Shown: positions 1,241 through 7,260 of the stretch, in pieces
Numbering within the stretch: position 1 is the first letter of the stretch
How the letters are laid out: the number at the start of each line of letters is the position of its first letter
DNA from: Solobacterium sp.
GTDB taxonomy: Bacteria > Bacillota_I > Bacilli_A > Erysipelotrichales > Erysipelotrichaceae
Assembly: GCA_017536845.1 (NCBI GenBank)
Contig: JAFWCP010000296.1
Span: 1 to 7,260 of the forward strand
DNA length: 7,260 nucleotides
Direction of reading: 5' to 3'
Position numbers and translations under genes: made by a program
Notes under the pieces: generated by a model
Database searches by the model: none
Told to the model about the DNA's origin: nothing
Seen by the model: the letters and a program-made list of their open reading frames with translations, nothing else

Positions 1241-1906
1241 TTAATCGACAGGCCGCTTCTGGAGGGTCATCGGGAACAGGTTTTCAATCTTTCCCAGCAG
1301 CTCTTCATAAAGGCCTTTTTCTACAGTCGTGCAGACAATCGGCAGGCCGGACAGGGCTGAAGCTTCTTCCGCAAAGGGAAGCGAGTCCAGAACGGTCTGC
1401 GCTGTCGTTTCAGCTCCCAGATTGGAGTTGTTGATAATGCCGGTGAATTTCAGATGCCCTGCTTCCTCGATTTCCTGAATGACTTCCAGGACGGCCTGGG
1501 CGTTCCTTGTCAAAGGCCGGTAATAATTGATGACAAGGAACATGTCATAATCATTCTCTTCCCGGATATAGGGAGAAAGCCGGCCCAGCGCCAGGGCGCC
1601 GCGGTCATCACCGCCGACATCCACCACCGCATGCAGGGAACGGTCATGCACGATCGCATACATTTCCTGCGGCATGGCCGGGATGTCCAGGTTGGTGTTG
1701 GCATAGGCTGATACAATCAGCCTGACGCCGGCGTCTTCCAGTTCTTTGCGGCTGTCGAGGGTGCGGTAGTACGGGTTGACGATGTCAAGATCCGCAATCA
1801 CCGTTCTGTCATGCTGCTGTCTGAGATCGAGGGCCATGTTGACGGCAATGTTCGTCTTGCCGGAACCGTAATGGCCGGCCAGCAGCGTAATTCGCTTATA
1901 ACTCAT
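1241..1906 (-). CDS. MinD/ParA-like (SIMIBI) P-loop ATPase of unknown role
   Basis: A 221-residue soluble nucleotide-binding protein. Seen: Walker A AGHYGSGKTN (residues 10-19) directly after an N-terminal beta strand, an ADLDIVNPYYRT segment (39-49) placed like the switch I region of ParA/MinD/CobQ-like ATPases, and DVGGDDRG (96-103) as Walker B/switch II. A GIINNSNLG loop (157-165) follows, in the place of the base-recognition loop. Unlike true MinD/ParA proteins, the P-loop lacks the early 'deviant' lysine (KGGxGKT); H12-Y13 sit there instead. Its ATG lies inside the end of the upstream synthetase gene, overlapping by 11 nt with only a weak ribosome binding site, which suggests translational coupling. 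Position between the acid-activating enzymes and the oxidoreductase suggests a service role such as cofactor or cluster delivery, assembly or gating, but nothing in the sequence establishes this. Confidence 0.9.
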   Translation of the reverse strand: MSYKRITLLAGHYGSGKTNIAVNMALDLRQQHDRTVIADLDIVNPYYRTLDSRKELEDAGVRLIVSAYANTNLDIPAMPQEMYAIVHDRSLHAVVDVGGDDRGALALGRLSPYIREENDYDMFLVINYYRPLTRNAQAVLEVIQEIEEAGHLKFTGIINNSNLGAETTAQTVLDSLPFAEEASALSGLPIVCTTVEKGLYEELLGKIENLFPMTLQKRPVD

Positions 1907-4184
1907 TTCGTTTGATCTTTCCGCTTACCGTCTTGGGCAGCTCATCGCGGAAGACGACGATCCGCGGATACTTGTACGGTGCGGTATGCTTCTTGACGTA
2001 GTTCTGGATTTCCTTTTTCAGCTCCTCGGTGCCTTCGGTGCCTTCCACCAGCACGATGCTGGCCTTGACCACCTGGCCGCGTACTTCGTCCGGGGCGGCT
2101 GAGACGCCGCATTCGAGAACATACGGCAGTTCCATGATGACGCTTTCGATCTCGAACGGTCCAATCCGATAGCCGGAAGACTTGATGACATCGTCCTTGC
2201 GGCCGACATACCAGTAGAAGCCGTCTTCATCACGCCATGCCATATCGCCGGTATGGTACCAGCCATCATGCCATGTTGCGGCGGTTTCCTCTTCGTTGCC
2301 ATAATAGCATACGGCAAGTCCGGGCGGGCGGCCATGGCGCAGGTCGATGACGATTTCGCCTGTTTCACCGGTGGCGACGGGCTTGCCGTCGTTGTCCATC
2401 AGGGTAACATCGTAAATCGGGGCCGGTTTGCCCATCGAGCCGATCTTGTGCGGGGCACCGACCATGTTGCCGATGATCATCGTCGATTCGGACTGGCCGA
2501 AGCCTTCCATGATCCGCAGTCCGGTCGCCTTTTCAAACTGGCGGTAGACTTCCGGGTTGAGCGCTTCGTCGGCGGTCGTCATATGCTTGACCGAGGAGAA
2601 ATCGTACTTGGAGATATCCTGCTTGATCATCATCCTCAGCATGGTCGGCGGTGCGCAGAAGGTCGTAATATGGTATTTCGCAAACATCGGCAGGATGTCG
2701 GCGGCGTCGAAACGGTCAAAGTCATAGACGAAGACCGCCCCTTCCGCCAGCCACTGGCCGTAGAGCTTTCCCCACATGGCCTTGGCCCAGCCGGTATCGG
2801 AAATCGTAAAGTGCAGTCCCTTGGTATCCACCGTATGCCAGTATTTGGCGGTATGGAAGTGGCCAAGGGGGTATTTATAGTTGTGGGCGGCAATCTTGGG
2901 ATAGCCCGAGGTTCCGCTGGTAAAGTACATCAGCATCAGGTCGTCCCCGCCCGGGGCATCCTCGGTGCGCTTGTAATGGGAAGAATACATCGTATATTCT
3001 TCGTCAAAGCTGCGCCAGCCTTCCCTTTCGCCGTTGACGATGAGCTTTACGTTCATGCCGAAGTAGTTTTCACAGGCGATATCCACCTGATGGGCGGTAT
3101 CGCCGTCCGCCGTACAGATGATGGCTGAGACACCGGCGGATTTGAAGCGGTAGTCAAAGTCATGCGCCTGCAGCTGGTTGGTTGCCGGAATGGCAATGGC
3201 CCCGAGCTTGTTGAGGCCAAGGATCGCAAACCAGAACTGGTAATGCCGCTTTAAGACAAGCATGACCCGGTCGCCCTTCTTGATGCCCAGTGACTTGAAG
3301 TAGTTGGCACACTGGGAAGAAGCCCGCTTGATGTCCTTGAAGGTGAACCTTCTTTCGGTCTTGTCCTTCGATATATGCAGCATGGCAAGCTTCTCCGGAT
3401 CCCTTCTGGCGACAGCGTCCACCAGGTCGAAGGCAAAGTTGAAGTTCTGCACGTTGTGGAAACGGATCGACTGCGGGGTGCCGTCGTCGTTTTCCACAAC
3501 GTCAATATACTTATGCCATATCCTCTGCTTCGTATCCTCTTCCCGTTCGATGATCTCCTGATAGATCGGCGAATCGGCCAGCTCGGGAATCGGTTCTCCG
3601 GCCGGATTGAGGACGATGGCGTAGAAGATGCAGTCCTGTCCGTTGACGGCAATCATGCCGTGAGGAGTATCGGAATTATAATAGATCGTATCACCGGGGC
3701 CAAGGACCTCAGAGTGTTCACCGATCTGTACCTTCAGATAACCATCGACAACGATATCAATTTCCTGGCCGTCATGGCTGGTCAGTTCAATATCCCTGCC
3801 CTGAGCCGCTTCATCATAGATGCTGCGGACATACAGCGGTTCGGCGATACGGTTCTGGAAAGCGTAGGCAAGGTTGTAATACGTCATGCCGTGGGCATTT
3901 GAAATCTTCTGCCCGGCGCCTTTCCTGGTCAACGTGTAGGACCGCAGCGTCGGACTGTAGCCTTCGATGATATCCGTGACATTGACGCCGAATTTCAGAG
4001 CACAGCGGTAAAGAAACGTAAAGTTCAGGTCTTTCTGGCCATTCTCGCACTGCAGGTATTCTTCTTCGCTGACATCGGCGGCAGCAGCCATTTCGGCAAC
4101 GCCGAAACCGGTGGATTCACGCAGATCCCTGATACGGGCAGCCATTTCCTGAATTTTAAAATCTAATCCCGTGATTTGTTCCAT
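1896..4184 (-). CDS. XRE-cupin-acyl-CoA synthetase fusion, paralog B
   Basis: A 762-residue three-domain protein. Residues about 13-74 form an XRE-type helix-turn-helix (IRDLRESTGFGVAEMAAAA... ending NVTDIIEG). Residues about 115-192 form a cupin (SHDGQE with H137 and E141, G148, then NSDTPH with H175). Residues about 245-762 are a complete ANL adenylating enzyme of the medium-chain acyl-CoA synthetase type. Its motifs are FTSGTSGYPK (421-430), EGFGQSE (560-566), WYHTGD (642-647), YVGRKDD (659-665) and the catalytic lysine in KTVSGKIKRN (K756). Expected reaction: acid + ATP + CoA to acyl-CoA + AMP + PPi; substrate inferred to be a short branched acid. The start is fixed by GAGGAG at 4198-4193, 8 nt before ATG. 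Odd: D539 replaces the Gly seen in paralog A (TTADEALNP versus TTAGEALNP), and the first His of the cupin HxH is Thr (T135). Whether the HTH binds DNA is unknown. Confidence 0.95.
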   Translation of the reverse strand: MEQITGLDFKIQEMAARIRDLRESTGFGVAEMAAAADVSEEEYLQCENGQKDLNFTFLYRCALKFGVNVTDIIEGYSPTLRSYTLTRKGAGQKISNAHGMTYYNLAYAFQNRIAEPLYVRSIYDEAAQGRDIELTSHDGQEIDIVVDGYLKVQIGEHSEVLGPGDTIYYNSDTPHGMIAVNGQDCIFYAIVLNPAGEPIPELADSPIYQEIIEREEDTKQRIWHKYIDVVENDDGTPQSIRFHNVQNFNFAFDLVDAVARRDPEKLAMLHISKDKTERRFTFKDIKRASSQCANYFKSLGIKKGDRVMLVLKRHYQFWFAILGLNKLGAIAIPATNQLQAHDFDYRFKSAGVSAIICTADGDTAHQVDIACENYFGMNVKLIVNGEREGWRSFDEEYTMYSSHYKRTEDAPGGDDLMLMYFTSGTSGYPKIAAHNYKYPLGHFHTAKYWHTVDTKGLHFTISDTGWAKAMWGKLYGQWLAEGAVFVYDFDRFDAADILPMFAKYHITTFCAPPTMLRMMIKQDISKYDFSSVKHMTTADEALNPEVYRQFEKATGLRIMEGFGQSESTMIIGNMVGAPHKIGSMGKPAPIYDVTLMDNDGKPVATGETGEIVIDLRHGRPPGLAVCYYGNEEETAATWHDGWYHTGDMAWRDEDGFYWYVGRKDDVIKSSGYRIGPFEIESVIMELPYVLECGVSAAPDEVRGQVVKASIVLVEGTEGTEELKKEIQNYVKKHTAPYKYPRIVVFRDELPKTVSGKIKRNEL
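2047..2081. repeat. 35-nt tract identical to 4494-4528
   Basis: Direct comparison shows this tract of paralog B is identical, without mismatch, to 4494-4528 in paralog A. It encodes the C-terminal RGQVVKASIVLV region. Synonymous positions match here, although flanking codons differ. Confidence 0.9.
2119..2168. repeat. 50-nt tract identical to 4566-4615
   Basis: Fifty consecutive bases are identical to 4566-4615 in the tandem paralog, covering the IGPFEIESVIMELPY region of the synthetase C-terminal domain. Third codon positions are also identical, whereas neighbouring codons differ. This fits a recent gene-conversion tract or strong constraint, and gives a substrate for recombination about 2.45 kb apart. 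Confidence 0.9.
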
Positions 4185-4342
4185 ATTCTCCTCTCCTCAA
4201 TACGCCCCGGCTTCACAAGACTCCTGTCTGAAGCCATGGCATTGATACAGTTTACAACAATTTGCCCGTTTTGGACTGCTGTTTCGCCTCAAAATGTGAA
4301 ATCAGAGAAATATTTTCTGAAAACTTTTCATTAATGAAGTTA
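4185..4342 (-). other. Intergenic spacer between the two synthetase paralogs
   Basis: A 158-nt AT-richer gap that breaks the otherwise tight gene packing. It holds a weak AT-rich hairpin just after the paralog A stop (AACTT 4341-4337 with AAGTT 4326-4322, followed by only a few Ts), a TCAGA/TCTGA inverted repeat near 4322-4300, and a stronger hairpin at 4235-4209 described separately. The ribosome binding site GAGGAG follows at 4198-4193. I see no convincing second promoter and no strong intrinsic terminator, so read-through from the T-box promoter into paralog B is the simplest model; partial termination or RNA processing is possible. Confidence 0.55.
4209..4235 (-). promoter_or_regulatory. 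Perfect 7-bp hairpin upstream of paralog B ribosome binding site
   Basis: GGCTTCA (4235-4229) and TGAAGCC (4215-4209) are perfect complements. A nested GAC-AGGA-GTC helix inside could extend the stem with a TTG bulge. It ends 10 nt before GAGGAG. No T-run follows, so it is not an intrinsic terminator. It could stabilise a processed mRNA end, tune translation, or be a DNA operator for one of the HTH proteins; the sequence does not decide. Confidence 0.45.
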
Positions 4343-6607
4343 TCAGAGCCTGTTCCGCTGAATTTTGCCGGAAATTGTCTTGGGCAGTTCATCCCGGAAG
4401 ACGACAATTCTGGGATATTTGTAAGGTGCTGTATTCTTCTTGACATACTCCTGGATTTCCTTTTTCAGTTCATCCGTGCCTTCAACTCCCTTGACCAGCA
4501 CGATGCTGGCCTTGACCACCTGGCCGCGCAGCTCGTCCGGTTCGGCCGAGACGCCGCATTCCAGGACATACGGCAGTTCCATGATGACGCTTTCGATCTC
4601 GAACGGTCCAATCCGGTAGCCGGAGGATTTGATGACATCGTCCACCCTGCCGACATACCAGTAGAAGCCGTCTTCATCACGCCAGGCGACATCGCCCGTA
4701 TGGTAGTAGCCGTCATGCCAGACTTCAGCCGTGGCTTTTTCATCACGGTAGTAGCCTTTGAACAGGCCGCATGGAACTCTGTCTTTTGTTTTGACAACGA
4801 TTTCGGCAGGAATACCGTCTTCGACCGGATTTCCGTCGTGATCCATTAAGGATACATCATAGAGCGGGGTCGGCTTGCCCATGGAGCCAAGCTTATGGGT
4901 GCCGCCCATCAGGTTGCCGATGCAAAGGGTCAGCTCGGTCTGGCCGAAGCCTTCCATGATCTGCAGGCCGGTGCTCTTTTCAAACTGCCTGTAGACTTCG
5001 GGGTTGAGTGCTTCGCCGGCTGTTGTCATGTGCACGACGGAAGACAGGTCATATTTGGAGAGGTCTTCCTTGATAAGCATGCGCAGGATGGTCGGCGGTG
5101 CGCAGAAGGTCGTGATGTTGTATTTGGCAAACATCGGCAGGATTTCATTGGCATGGAAGCGTTCGAAGTCATAGGTGAACACTGCCCCTTCCTGCAGCCA
5201 CTGGCCGTAGAGCTTGCCCCATAACGCCTTGCCCCAGCCGGTATCGGAAATCGTGAAGTGCAGGCCGTTGTCGCTGACGCCGTGCCAGTACTTGGCCGTG
5301 ATGAAGTGGCCTAATGCGTACTTGCAGGAATGTTCGGCGATCTTGGGATAGCCGGTTGTGCCGGAGGTGAAGAACATCAGCTGGGTATCATTGCCGCATG
5401 GTGTTTCGTCTGTACGGTAGAAGTGGGCACTGTACAGGTCGAATTCATCATCGAAGCTGTGCCAGCCTTCGCGGCGGCCGCCGACGATGACCTTGGTTTT
5501 CAGGGTCGGGCACTTGGTCTGGGCAAGGTCAACCTGGTTGGGCACATCGTCCATGCTGGTTGCGATGATCGCGCTGACGCCGGCGGAATCAAAACGGTAT
5601 TCGAAGTCATGCGCCTGCAGCTGGCTGGTTGCCGGGATGGCAATCGCACCCAGTTTGTGCAGACCCAGGATGGCAAACCAGAACTGGTAATGACGTTTTA
5701 ATACGACCATAACTCTGTCGCCCTTGCGTACGCCCAATGCCTTGAAATAGTTGGCAGCCTGGGCGGAAGCACGTTTCATATCACGGAACGTGAACCTTCT
5801 TTCAGTAAGGTCATTGCTGATGTGGATCATCGCCAGCTTGTCGGGATCCTTTTTCGCAATGGCATCGACAACATCAAACGCGAAGTTGAACTTGTCTTCA
5901 TTCTTGAAGCTGATTTCCTTTAAGGCACCGTATTCATCTTCCACGCAGTCGACGAAATTCTCGCAGACCAGCTTCTTTCCGGTATTGCGGGAAGGGATGA
6001 AGGTATTGCGGATCTGTACTTCCTTGACGTCGTTGCCGGGGATGACGATCGCGACAAACAGGCAGTCGCGGCCGTCAACGGCAATCATGCCGTGGGGCGT
6101 GGAAGAATTATAGTAAATGCTGTCGCCTTCGGACAGGTATTCGACATTGTCGCCGACCTGCACCTTCATGCGGCCTGACAGCACGTAGTCGAACTCCTGG
6201 CCGGAGTGGGTTGTCAGATGGATCGGCTTGTCCTGTTCGGCATCGCTGTAGGAATACCTGACATAGTAAGGCTCGGCCATCTTGCGGCGGAACATCGGCG
6301 CCATATTCTGAATCGTGATGCCATCTTCAACAACTGCGTTCCAGCCTCTTCCCTTCCGCGTGACCGCGTAGGAAGAAAGGCGGGCCGTACGGCCTTCCAG
6401 CAGTTCTGACATGCTGACATTGAAGACAATCGAGCAGGCATGAATAAATGAGAACGGGAGATCCTGTTTCCCTGATTCATATGCTTCATACGTCGCCAGG
6501 TCAACATGTGTTTTCTCTGCCATTTCTTCAGCCGTCAGGCCGGTGATTTCCCTCAGTTCATGGATTCGAAGCGCAGCTTCCATCAGATCGTTGTCTACCG
6601 GGTTCAT
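4343..6607 (-). CDS. XRE-cupin-acyl-CoA synthetase fusion, paralog A (first gene after the T-box)
   Basis: A 754-residue protein with three visible parts. An XRE helix-turn-helix spans about 10-72 (IHELREITGLTAEEMAEKTH through MSELLEG). A cupin spans about 115-190 (THSGQE with H134 and E138, G145, then NSSTPH with H172). A full ANL adenylation module spans about 237-754. The module carries the phosphate loop FFTSGTTGYPK (412-422), TTAGEALNPEVY (528-539), EGFGQTE (552-558), YHTGD (635-639), YVGRVDD (651-657) and the catalytic lysine K748 in KTISGKIQRN. The stretch around FNFAFDVVDAIAKKDPDK and GVRKGDRV resembles medium-chain acyl-CoA synthetases (ACSM/MACS), which make acyl-CoA through an acyl-AMP. 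About 230 N-terminal residues are additional to a normal synthetase of roughly 520-550. The start at 6607 is set by AGGAGG at 6621-6616. The fusion suggests an acid-responsive enzyme that may also regulate transcription, which is inference. The first His of the cupin HxH is Thr (T132). Confidence 0.95.
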   Translation of the reverse strand: MNPVDNDLMEAALRIHELREITGLTAEEMAEKTHVDLATYEAYESGKQDLPFSFIHACSIVFNVSMSELLEGRTARLSSYAVTRKGRGWNAVVEDGITIQNMAPMFRRKMAEPYYVRYSYSDAEQDKPIHLTTHSGQEFDYVLSGRMKVQVGDNVEYLSEGDSIYYNSSTPHGMIAVDGRDCLFVAIVIPGNDVKEVQIRNTFIPSRNTGKKLVCENFVDCVEDEYGALKEISFKNEDKFNFAFDVVDAIAKKDPDKLAMIHISNDLTERRFTFRDMKRASAQAANYFKALGVRKGDRVMVVLKRHYQFWFAILGLHKLGAIAIPATSQLQAHDFEYRFDSAGVSAIIATSMDDVPNQVDLAQTKCPTLKTKVIVGGRREGWHSFDDEFDLYSAHFYRTDETPCGNDTQLMFFTSGTTGYPKIAEHSCKYALGHFITAKYWHGVSDNGLHFTISDTGWGKALWGKLYGQWLQEGAVFTYDFERFHANEILPMFAKYNITTFCAPPTILRMLIKEDLSKYDLSSVVHMTTAGEALNPEVYRQFEKSTGLQIMEGFGQTELTLCIGNLMGGTHKLGSMGKPTPLYDVSLMDHDGNPVEDGIPAEIVVKTKDRVPCGLFKGYYRDEKATAEVWHDGYYHTGDVAWRDEDGFYWYVGRVDDVIKSSGYRIGPFEIESVIMELPYVLECGVSAEPDELRGQVVKASIVLVKGVEGTDELKKEIQEYVKKNTAPYKYPRIVVFRDELPKTISGKIQRNRL

Positions 6608-6641: not shown

Positions 6642-6685
6642 AAAAAGAACACATCCGCCTCAATTGCATTGAGACGAGCGTGTTC
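6642..6685 (-). terminator. Rho-independent terminator of the T-box leader
   Basis: Outer arms GAACAC (6685-6680) and GTGTTC (6652-6647) and inner arms CGTCTCAAT (6676-6668) and ATTGAGGCG (6664-6656) pair around a 3-nt loop with a small imperfect internal region. TTTTT (6646-6642) follows directly. CTCAAT (6673-6668) can instead pair upstream with ATTGAG (6714-6709), which would break this hairpin; this is the expected T-box switch. Confidence 0.95.
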
Positions 6686-6696
6686 CTGTAAACGCA

Positions 6697-6711
6697 CCCG
6701 CGGTACCACTC
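6697..6711 (-). promoter_or_regulatory. T-box core sequence with UGGU bulge
   Basis: GAGTGGTACCGCGGG matches the conserved T-box element. Its UGGN bulge (6708-6705) reads UGGU, which would pair with a tRNA 3' end ACCA, meaning a discriminator base A. That is compatible with tRNA-Ile and with several other tRNAs, so it supports but does not prove the assignment. Confidence 0.95.
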
Positions 6712-6825
6712 AATTTGCTGAAACCAGCCACCTTCAGGATCTGTCAATCCCTTCATCTGTAACGTGATTACACGGGATACGCCTACCTGGCAGTAACTGC
6801 CGTATCGGGTATCCGGCTCAGAAGT

Positions 6826-6828
6826 GAT
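6826..6828 (-). promoter_or_regulatory. Specifier codon AUC (Ile)
   Basis: The 3' side of the specifier loop reads UGAAAACCAUCA and is followed at once by the CUUC helix. In the glyQS leader, as I recall it, the specifier is the triplet before the last purine of this loop (GGC, then A). The same register gives AUC followed by A. AUC is fully complementary to the GAU anticodon of tRNA-Ile. Shifted readings such as ACC (Thr) or AAC (Asn) would place the triplet several bases too far from the lower helix. Confidence 0.75.
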
Positions 6829-6930
6829 GGTTTTCATGAAAGCGTCTGTCATCAGGGTTTCACCGTTCCCCGATTCTCTTTTCCGGCATCCGTTTTCAAA
6901 CGTCTTCGTCAAAGCCTTTGTTTTCTATTC

Positions 6931-6941
6931 GTGATGTTCAC
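6931..6941. repeat. GTGA-N3-TCAC dyad over the predicted transcription start
   Basis: On the minus strand GTGAACATCAC is a perfect 4-bp inverted repeat beginning 1 nt after the -10 element. A related TCACGGTG lies in the -35/-10 spacer at 6956-6949. Small dyads in this position often act as operators; an XRE-type binder such as the fused HTH proteins is a candidate, but chance occurrence is quite possible. Confidence 0.35.
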
Positions 6942-6942
6942 T

Positions 6943-6972
6943 ATGCTAACACCGTGAGATATACAATGTCAA
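6943..6972 (-). promoter_or_regulatory. Sigma-70/SigA-type promoter of the operon
   Basis: A perfect -35 TTGACA (6972-6967), an 18-nt spacer, and TAGCAT (6948-6943) preceded by the TGn extension (TGT at 6951-6949). Transcription should start near 6936, about 20 nt before Stem I of the T-box. The promoter lies only about 30 nt past the stop of the upstream acyl-CoA synthetase gene. Confidence 0.85.
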
Positions 6973-7004: not shown

Positions 7005-7260
7005 TCATTTTTTGCAGTACTTCCTGACTGCATCCTCGCGCATCTTGTACTTAAGCACTTTGCCGGCCGCATTCATCGGGAAAGCGTCCGTGAATTCAAT
7101 GTACTTCGGCACTTTATGACGGGCCAGATGGGACATGATATACTCCCGCATTTCCGGAATTGTGACCGGCTGATCTTCCTTGAGGATGATCATAGCCAGC
7201 GCTTCTTCGCCATAGCGCTCATCGGGAACGCCGATGACCTGGACATCCTTGACCGCCGGA
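7005..7260 (-). CDS. Acyl-CoA synthetase (AMP-forming), FadD-like, C-terminal end only
   Basis: The last 85 codons of an ANL-superfamily adenylating enzyme; the 5' part lies beyond the right edge (first complete codon at 7259). The visible part is the mobile C-terminal domain: PAVKDVQVIGVPDERYGEEALAMI opens it, then EMREYIMSHLARHKVPKYIEF, and PMNAAGKVLKYKMRE carries the conserved catalytic lysine in AAGK. It ends in a basic KKYCKK-like tail. It is clearly not a third copy of the downstream fusions: its C-terminal sequence is of the long/medium-chain FadD type and differs throughout. No strong terminator separates it from the T-box promoter, so some read-through into the leader is possible. 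The substrate cannot be told from this fragment. Confidence 0.92.
   Translation of the reverse strand, partial: PAVKDVQVIGVPDERYGEEALAMIILKEDQPVTIPEMREYIMSHLARHKVPKYIEFTDAFPMNAAGKVLKYKMREDAVRKYCKK

Follow-up and report, generated by a model that had tools for sequence, protein, structure and literature searches.

An isoleucine-type T-box heads an operon for carboxylic acid activation and proposed reductive carboxylation in Solobacterium sp.

A T-box turns its genes on in response to uncharged cognate tRNA. Why should an isoleucine-type T-box stand before acyl-CoA synthetases and a ferredoxin-dependent oxidoreductase, and does the operon behind it supply amino acids or break them down? The question is raised by 7,260 nucleotides of DNA from the gut bacterium Solobacterium sp. 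(contig JAFWCP010000296.1 of assembly GCA_017536845.1), hereafter called the window, in which a preliminary description, made from the sequence letters, had placed such a T-box and proposed a role in isoleucine supply. In our reading, to which we give a probability of about 0.83, the Ile T-box gates reductive carboxylation of 2-methylbutyrate to isoleucine and of isobutyrate to valine.

The T-box is located on the minus strand at 6921-6667, where cmscan finds a full-length match to RF00230 (model positions 1-219) with a score of 66.5 bits. The E-value is 2.3e-14 in a 461-base scan, on which a chance match or artefact was rejected, and it becomes 2.2e-12 when 43 kb from three sources are scanned. 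The score falls short of the Rfam gathering score of 93, and a default Rfam scan of the window therefore lists nothing. Among six related loci, a score of 93 is reached by three of six leaders of the first synthetase gene (ACS1) and by two of six leaders of the second (ACS2); for L002 and L003, it is reached by one of two ACS1 leaders and both ACS2 leaders. Matches to mir-873 and sR47 in the window scan are far under their own gathering scores and were disregarded. Stem I, with the distal AGAGA...GGUGAAA motifs and the specifier loop, covers 6814-6922 on the minus strand and is matched at 69.4 bits (E 1.2e-13) by stem I covariance model R1, which was built from 40 leaders, 26 before ACS1 and 14 before ACS2, the window leader being one of these 40 training sequences. 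The T-box bulge, UGGU, follows at 6708-6705. By architecture, the window RNA is a T-box, with an unusual specifier loop and unusual targets.

The clean switch that had been described is indeed present. The antiterminator (6669-6714, minus strand, -14.4 kcal/mol) and the intrinsic terminator (6642-6685, minus strand), which consists of a hairpin at 6685-6647 (-19.9 kcal/mol) and a U tract (TTTTT) at 6646-6642, have one strand in common and are thus mutually exclusive; the terminator is also picked up by a simple terminator scan, with 0.5 expected by chance. As for the promoter, a promoter-like site on the minus strand at 6943-6972 is composed of TTGACA (6972-6967), an 18-base spacer, and TAGCAT (6948-6943), and matches the consensus at 10 of 12 positions, but such sites are expected 0.7 times in shuffles of the stretch scanned, against the one found, and the site is weak alone. 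Among the leaders listed, TTGACA/TATAAT-like pairs are seen by eye 5′ of many relatives' leaders. In the related genome G002, where 30 of 46 tRNA matches were examined, tRNA-Ile(GAU) and tRNA-Val(UAC) carry A before CCA by eye, which fits UGGU; the 3′ end of the former reads ...CCCACCA, with A as discriminator.

The specifier, AUC (Ile; tRNA-Ile GAU), lies at 6826-6828 on the minus strand and is read in the specifier columns of both the Rfam alignment and our own stem I model. The AGUA/GAA specifier-loop motif of the Rfam consensus is absent from the window T-box. This motif is common in T-boxes, not universal, and it was not counted as a requirement for T-box membership. Nor is it conserved in the lineage: AGUA occurs in one of 70 Ile leaders, and GAA within seven bases of the specifier in five of 70. 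For this reason, the register was set from the 3′ side, by the specifier, one base, and the CUUC strand, which we take to pair with the 5′-side GAAG. It agrees with the standard frame of TBDB, in which one base stands between specifier and helix according to the TBDB paper (PMC7778990), so that the expected register of the preliminary description holds. RNAalifold on the leaders kept the distal stem alone, with six pairs, and therefore covariation is not invoked in favor of the specifier helix.

Counting from a 5′ GAA, as is done in the PheS, ValS, and MetS leaders of these genomes (GAAG-specifier), would put the specifier on another triplet, e.g., ACC (Thr), three bases upstream at GAAA-ACC-A. 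Such a register is scarcely credible: AUC is invariant in 70/70 Ile leaders with variable flanks, GAA is near the specifier in 5/70, AUC matches the standard register as given for TBDB, and the variation within the codon of the Val leaders is limited to the third base, GUA or GUC. Indeed, the base 5′ of AUC is C in 42, T in 25, A in two, and G in one of the 70 Ile leaders, and the base 3′ of it is A in 36, C in 30, and G in four; the flanking bases vary on both sides, and conservation therefore stops at the AUC codon. As a control, the 3′-side specifier caller was run on other T-boxes of the same genomes, the core motif being found in 14 of 30 loci. It returned the cognate codon for six of 10 leaders whose next gene was tested by NCBIfam: AUG for MetS (L088 and L090), GUC for ValS (L089, L097, and L109), and UUC for PheS (L102). 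Two calls, made at weak stem I matches, were wrong (ValS L098 and PheS L110), AspS of L105 was read as AAC (Asn), and the gene of L082 (UUC) matched no family at E <= 1e-90. There was no usable call for L081, L084, L086, and L096.

The genes behind the T-box, assigned by Pfam and NCBIfam, are the acyl-CoA synthetase fusions and the ferredoxin-dependent oxidoreductase of the preliminary description, all on the minus strand. ACS1 (4343-6607, 754 aa) and ACS2 (1896-4184, 762 aa, placed in the ACS2 clade) are both HTH-cupin-AMP-binding acyl-CoA synthetases by Pfam, and are proposed to be a 2-methylbutyrate:CoA ligase and an isobutyrate:CoA ligase, respectively. They are followed by a P-loop NTPase (1241-1906; marginal CbiA match, 25.5 bits vs a cut-off of 25.4), a ferredoxin with two 4Fe-4S motifs resembling a delta subunit (1004-1210; Fer4_7 and Fer4), and a VorB-type 2-oxoacid:ferredoxin oxidoreductase subunit (1-993; POR_N), which scores 523.9 bits for NF005507, over the cut-off of 399, though the gene is cut by the window end. 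A fuller version is found in L007, in the order T-box (Ile), ACS1, T-box (Val), ACS2, P-loop NTPase, ferredoxin, VorB, KorB, KorC, and branched-chain aminotransferase. The aminotransferase is of the IlvE type (NF009897, 479.1 bits; cut-off 307), and the ferredoxin orthologue there matches delta-subunit families under their cut-offs. Among the 59 loci from the best 80 that have at least 7.3 kb after ACS1, VorB, ferredoxin, and the P-loop gene are each present in 57, KorB in 56, KorC in 54, and the aminotransferase in 43. By analogy with these relatives, the KorB, KorC, and aminotransferase genes would be expected beyond the window end.

In the window, cmscan finds no T-box in the 158-base gap between ACS1 and ACS2 (4185-4342), and there is no promoter or terminator match at 4150-4400; at this position, a Val T-box is present in the close relatives L001-L003. 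The Ile T-box is the sole one found in the window and is presumed to control ACS2 and the shared oxidoreductase as well, so that one Ile T-box probably governs both arms.

The related loci are the best 80 of at least 594 confirmed stretches from a scan of genome contigs; 75 of them are MAGs by title, and a rumen, omasum, or hindgut sample is given in many of the titles. The stem I model gives 143 matches in the window and these loci. Every leader detected before ACS1, 70 in all from 69 loci plus the window, has AUC as its specifier, including 44/44 outside the training set, which together with the variable flanks bears out the isoleucine identity and the conservation of the codon among orthologous leaders. 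All 45 leaders found before ACS2 read Val (40 GUA and five GUC), including 31/31 outside the training set, and four further GUA leaders (L009, L016, L018, and L076) stand where the second synthetase gene is cut off or not called. In L001-L003, which are closest to the window by ACS1 identity among the matches listed, ACS2 is preceded by a different T-box with a canonical stem I, and GUC is read there from the cmscan alignments; Val control of ACS2 therefore occurs in two leader types. A terminator-like hairpin follows 63 of 68 Ile leaders of loci (69 leaders) in which the core was found and 39 of 45 Val leaders, while the same search finds it in 12 of 68 mononucleotide shuffles. The leader counts are not independent because the loci are related.

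A regex for the core motif misses the UGGUACCACG T-boxes of L001-L003, which cmscan detects. In 11 leaders, a second regex, for the specifier, called codons other than Ile or Val (L003 ACA, L026 CGG, L044 TTG, L046 GCG, L063 CAA, L064 CAA, L067 CCG, L070 GGT, L071 TTG, L073 GGC, and L074 TAT); these calls were rejected, this regex having matched elsewhere in the leader, and the specifier counts were therefore taken from the stem I model. Ten of the 11 are AUC or Val by that model, and L003 is GUC from the cmscan alignment. In total, an Ile leader is found for 70 of 81 ACS1 genes and a Val leader for 48 of 56 ACS2 genes, L001-L003 being labelled by hand from cmscan. Among the 11 ACS1 genes with no leader detected, those of L005, L025, L062, and L076 have 252 bases or fewer upstream, whereas those of L031, L032, L035, L037, L040, L045, and L047 lack a detected Ile T-box despite 560 bases searched. 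The eight ACS2 genes with no leader detected are those of L005, L011, L019, L032, L040, L045, L077, and the window. In four of the loci where no Ile T-box was found before ACS1 (L032, L035, L040, and L045), a pair of genes for an isopropylmalate-synthase-like protein and a third synthetase (ACS3, see below) lies upstream, perhaps in one transcription unit.

The division between the two synthetases is seen in the proteins as well. In a tree of 137 ACS proteins of at least 650 residues, ACS1 (81) and ACS2 (56) are separated by a single perfect bipartition with support of 1.0 and no misplaced sequence, and the specifier follows the protein clade, Ile with ACS1 and Val with ACS2. Seven differences between the clades are fixed at 93% or more on both sides, one of them catalytic: G459 in 81/81 ACS1 versus A467 in 56/56 ACS2. 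An overlap criterion adds a second catalytic position, L462 (80/81 ACS1) versus M/A/T/G470. The best PDB sequence match of the ACS1 catalytic region is 3etc (622 bits), which we take to be MacsMa, in agreement with the residue numbers of the published enzyme. According to the published description (PMC10455477), MacsMa, from Methanosarcina acetivorans, prefers 2-methylbutyrate, and its Trp259 is critical for substrate binding; with the numbering anchored by hand count at YHTGD 431-435 of the same text, the G459/A467 and L462/470 positions fall four and one residues before the residue aligned to Trp259. Replacement of Gly by Ala at this position would be consistent with a smaller acid, isobutyrate, as substrate of the Val-type enzyme. 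The GWGK motif is kept in ACS1. Unlike MacsMa, the window proteins have an N-terminal HTH-cupin extension, and ACS2 has Ala at the Gly position. This extension is fused to both synthetases, and the other six of the seven near-fixed differences lie in ACS1 residues 57-114; they might reflect a second, protein-level regulation.

The best NCBIfam family for both synthetases is MbcS (NF047394), with 421.8 bits for ACS1 and 423.9 bits for ACS2. In S. aureus, the methylbutyryl-CoA synthetase MbcS activates 2-methylbutyrate and isobutyrate, as reported for the purified enzyme (PMC10026030), and the window synthetases could, like it, mainly supply branched-chain fatty acid synthesis. We consider this quite unlikely: both scores are under the cut-off of 850, the operon runs on into a 2-oxoacid oxidoreductase and, in relatives, an aminotransferase, and an amino-acid tRNA is in control. 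Unlike the window synthetases, MbcS is presented in that text as one enzyme for both acids that serves membrane lipids. The window synthetases were accordingly not filed as MbcS. Some leakage of acyl-CoA into lipids might nevertheless occur.

Do the host genomes have another route to these amino acids? Among the 80 genomes of the best 80 loci, IlvC is over its family cut-off in 12 (6/40 and 6/40) and does not reach it in 68. In the first 40 genomes, IlvD exceeds the cut-off in seven and IlvB in six; the six IlvC genomes are the same six that have IlvB, and all six have IlvD. In controls, 14/14 genomes pass the cut-offs for IlvC, IlvD, and IlvB. The genomes are possibly incomplete, the set coming without completeness figures; the three genes are absent or present together, which argues against random loss. 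When all matches at E <= 0.001 are counted, IlvC is found in 19/40 and 16/40, IlvD in 10/40, and IlvB in 20/40 genomes, and in G001-G003, closest to the window among the matches listed, IlvD reaches 495-509 bits, the cut-off being 618. LeuB exceeds its cut-off in 3/40 genomes, yet it does so in 9/14 controls only, and this test is therefore weak. Loci with ACS1 alone lie in IlvC-bearing genomes in eight of 16 cases, versus three of 59 for loci with both synthetases (five undetermined; Fisher p = 9e-5, kinship ignored).

These results bear on the opposite direction of the pathway, in which the operon would oxidize branched-chain amino acids by aminotransferase, oxidative VOR, and synthetases running backwards for ATP, with the T-box as a sensor of something else. 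It is general knowledge that VOR-type enzymes are reversible and commonly oxidative, and an aminotransferase and a ferredoxin are present in the related operons. Even so, oxidation is very unlikely, since induction by uncharged tRNA would then destroy the very amino acid in short supply, the synthetases belong to the AMP-forming type, Ile leaders stand at ACS1 and Val leaders at ACS2, and canonical biosynthesis is mostly under the family cut-offs. On T-box logic, operon content, and tRNA control, both this function and a pure lipid supply were rejected. Supply over breakdown, as proposed in the preliminary description, is thus upheld by the IlvE-type aminotransferase in the L007 operon, the Val T-boxes at ACS2, and IlvC under its cut-off in 68/80 genomes.

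There is a third specifier in the related loci. Twenty-two of the 143 stem I matches read Leu (17 CUC and five CUG). When their context was examined together with two matches with a gapped specifier (24 rows), 20 were found 170-328 bases before the start of a match to an isopropylmalate-synthase-like (IPMS-like) gene on the same strand; in L027, L029, L030, and L044, no such match was found, the locus ending within about 600 bases. In L002 (3367-7592) and L020 (3456-7633), the Leu T-box is followed by the IPMS-like gene and then by ACS3, a protein of 825/826 aa that carries an acyl-CoA ligase at its C-terminus. The IPMS-like genes score 281-290 bits for NF002086, under its cut-off of 532, and no IPMS cut-off shown is reached; the ACS3-type proteins score 656-674 bits for NF009233, under its cut-off of 832. 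In L002, the ACS3-type gene lies directly upstream of the Ile T-box. The window carries at 7005-7259, on the minus strand, the C-terminal end of an ACS3-type acyl-CoA ligase (AMP-binding_C). Over 81 aa, this fragment shares 79% identity with the end of its L002 counterpart, and therefore the same neighbor seems to be present in the window.

In the mechanism proposed here, the window RNA would be a transcription-terminating T-box reading tRNA-Ile(GAU). Uncharged tRNA-Ile would pair by its anticodon with AUC and by its acceptor end with UGGU, so that the antiterminator would be held and transcription would read through into the operon. AMP-forming synthetases activate acids, and VOR-type enzymes can run in reverse. 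ACS1 would convert 2-methylbutyrate, and ACS2 isobutyrate, to CoA thioesters; the Vor-type ferredoxin oxidoreductase would carboxylate these to 2-oxoacids, and the branched-chain aminotransferase, expected past the window end as in relatives, would yield isoleucine and valine. Most likely, then, the switch turns on the rebuilding of isoleucine and valine from environmental branched acids when isoleucine is short. We regard the operon as a branched-chain amino acid module, not an isoleucine-only one; the response to tRNA, the flux toward amino acids, and the substrates of ACS1, ACS2, and ACS3 are what we infer from the computed features. In many relatives, each activating enzyme has its own switch, Ile for ACS1, Val for ACS2, and Leu for the IPMS-like gene with ACS3. 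It is likely that three acid-activating enzymes, each with its own T-box (Leu, Ile, and Val) and with a specifier matching the acyl pocket, share one ferredoxin-dependent carboxylase and one aminotransferase. Counted against our reading are the sub-gathering score and missing AGUA/GAA of the window T-box, the window lacking a Val T-box, the leaderless genes (11/81 ACS1 and 8/56 ACS2), and IlvC in 12/80 genomes.

With the T-box family (RF00230; TBDB), the window RNA shares the distal stem I motifs, a specifier in the standard register, UGGU, the antiterminator/terminator pair, and amino-acid supply genes downstream. It differs from the family in its target, carboxylic-acid activation with proposed reductive carboxylation, and in the AGUA/GAA motif, which is not conserved; moreover, the relatives have T-boxes with different specifiers before homologous enzymes. 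The proposed chemistry is that of a route in rumen anaerobes, the reductive carboxylation of branched acids to valine and isoleucine, which was reportedly described by Robinson and Allison in 1969 and by Allison and Peel in 1971, and, to judge by their titles, many of the related genomes were obtained from rumen or gut samples. In the literature on rumen fermentation, 2-methylbutyrate is given as a precursor of isoleucine and isobutyrate as one of valine, and branched short-chain acids are known to act in the rumen as growth factors and as precursors of amino acids. The reverse reaction is regarded as unproven yet possible via the ferredoxin oxidoreductase, EC 1.2.7.7, in one report (PMC7709123). 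In the parts of the rumen branched-acid literature at hand, the route is described without such a gene set or regulation, whereas a gene set and tRNA control are proposed here. No paper joining a T-box to a branched-acid pathway was found in the open-access literature searched, subscription T-box surveys being outside its scope.

Most named database entries describe these synthetases simply as AMP-binding or cupin domain-containing protein. With the T-box specifiers, such vaguely named acyl-CoA synthetases can be given an amino acid, and hence a likely substrate, so that the specifiers serve as substrate labels on duplicated enzymes. The interest lies in these matched pairs of T-box and enzyme, and in the gene set for the long-known branched-acid route, which becomes testable with predicted enzymes, substrates, regulator, and auxotrophy. 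If the modular regulon is true, it would be the genetic basis of the isoacid requirement in many rumen and gut Firmicutes without canonical Ile/Val synthesis.

One further member of the operon is the P-loop NTPase, which is as conserved in it as VorB (57/59 loci each). The protein has two weak matches only in a PHROGs scan. Its predicted model (pLDDT 90.6) is most similar to SRP GTPases, with HypB further down, at TM-scores of about 0.5-0.6; as a guess, it might serve in metal or Fe-S cluster insertion.
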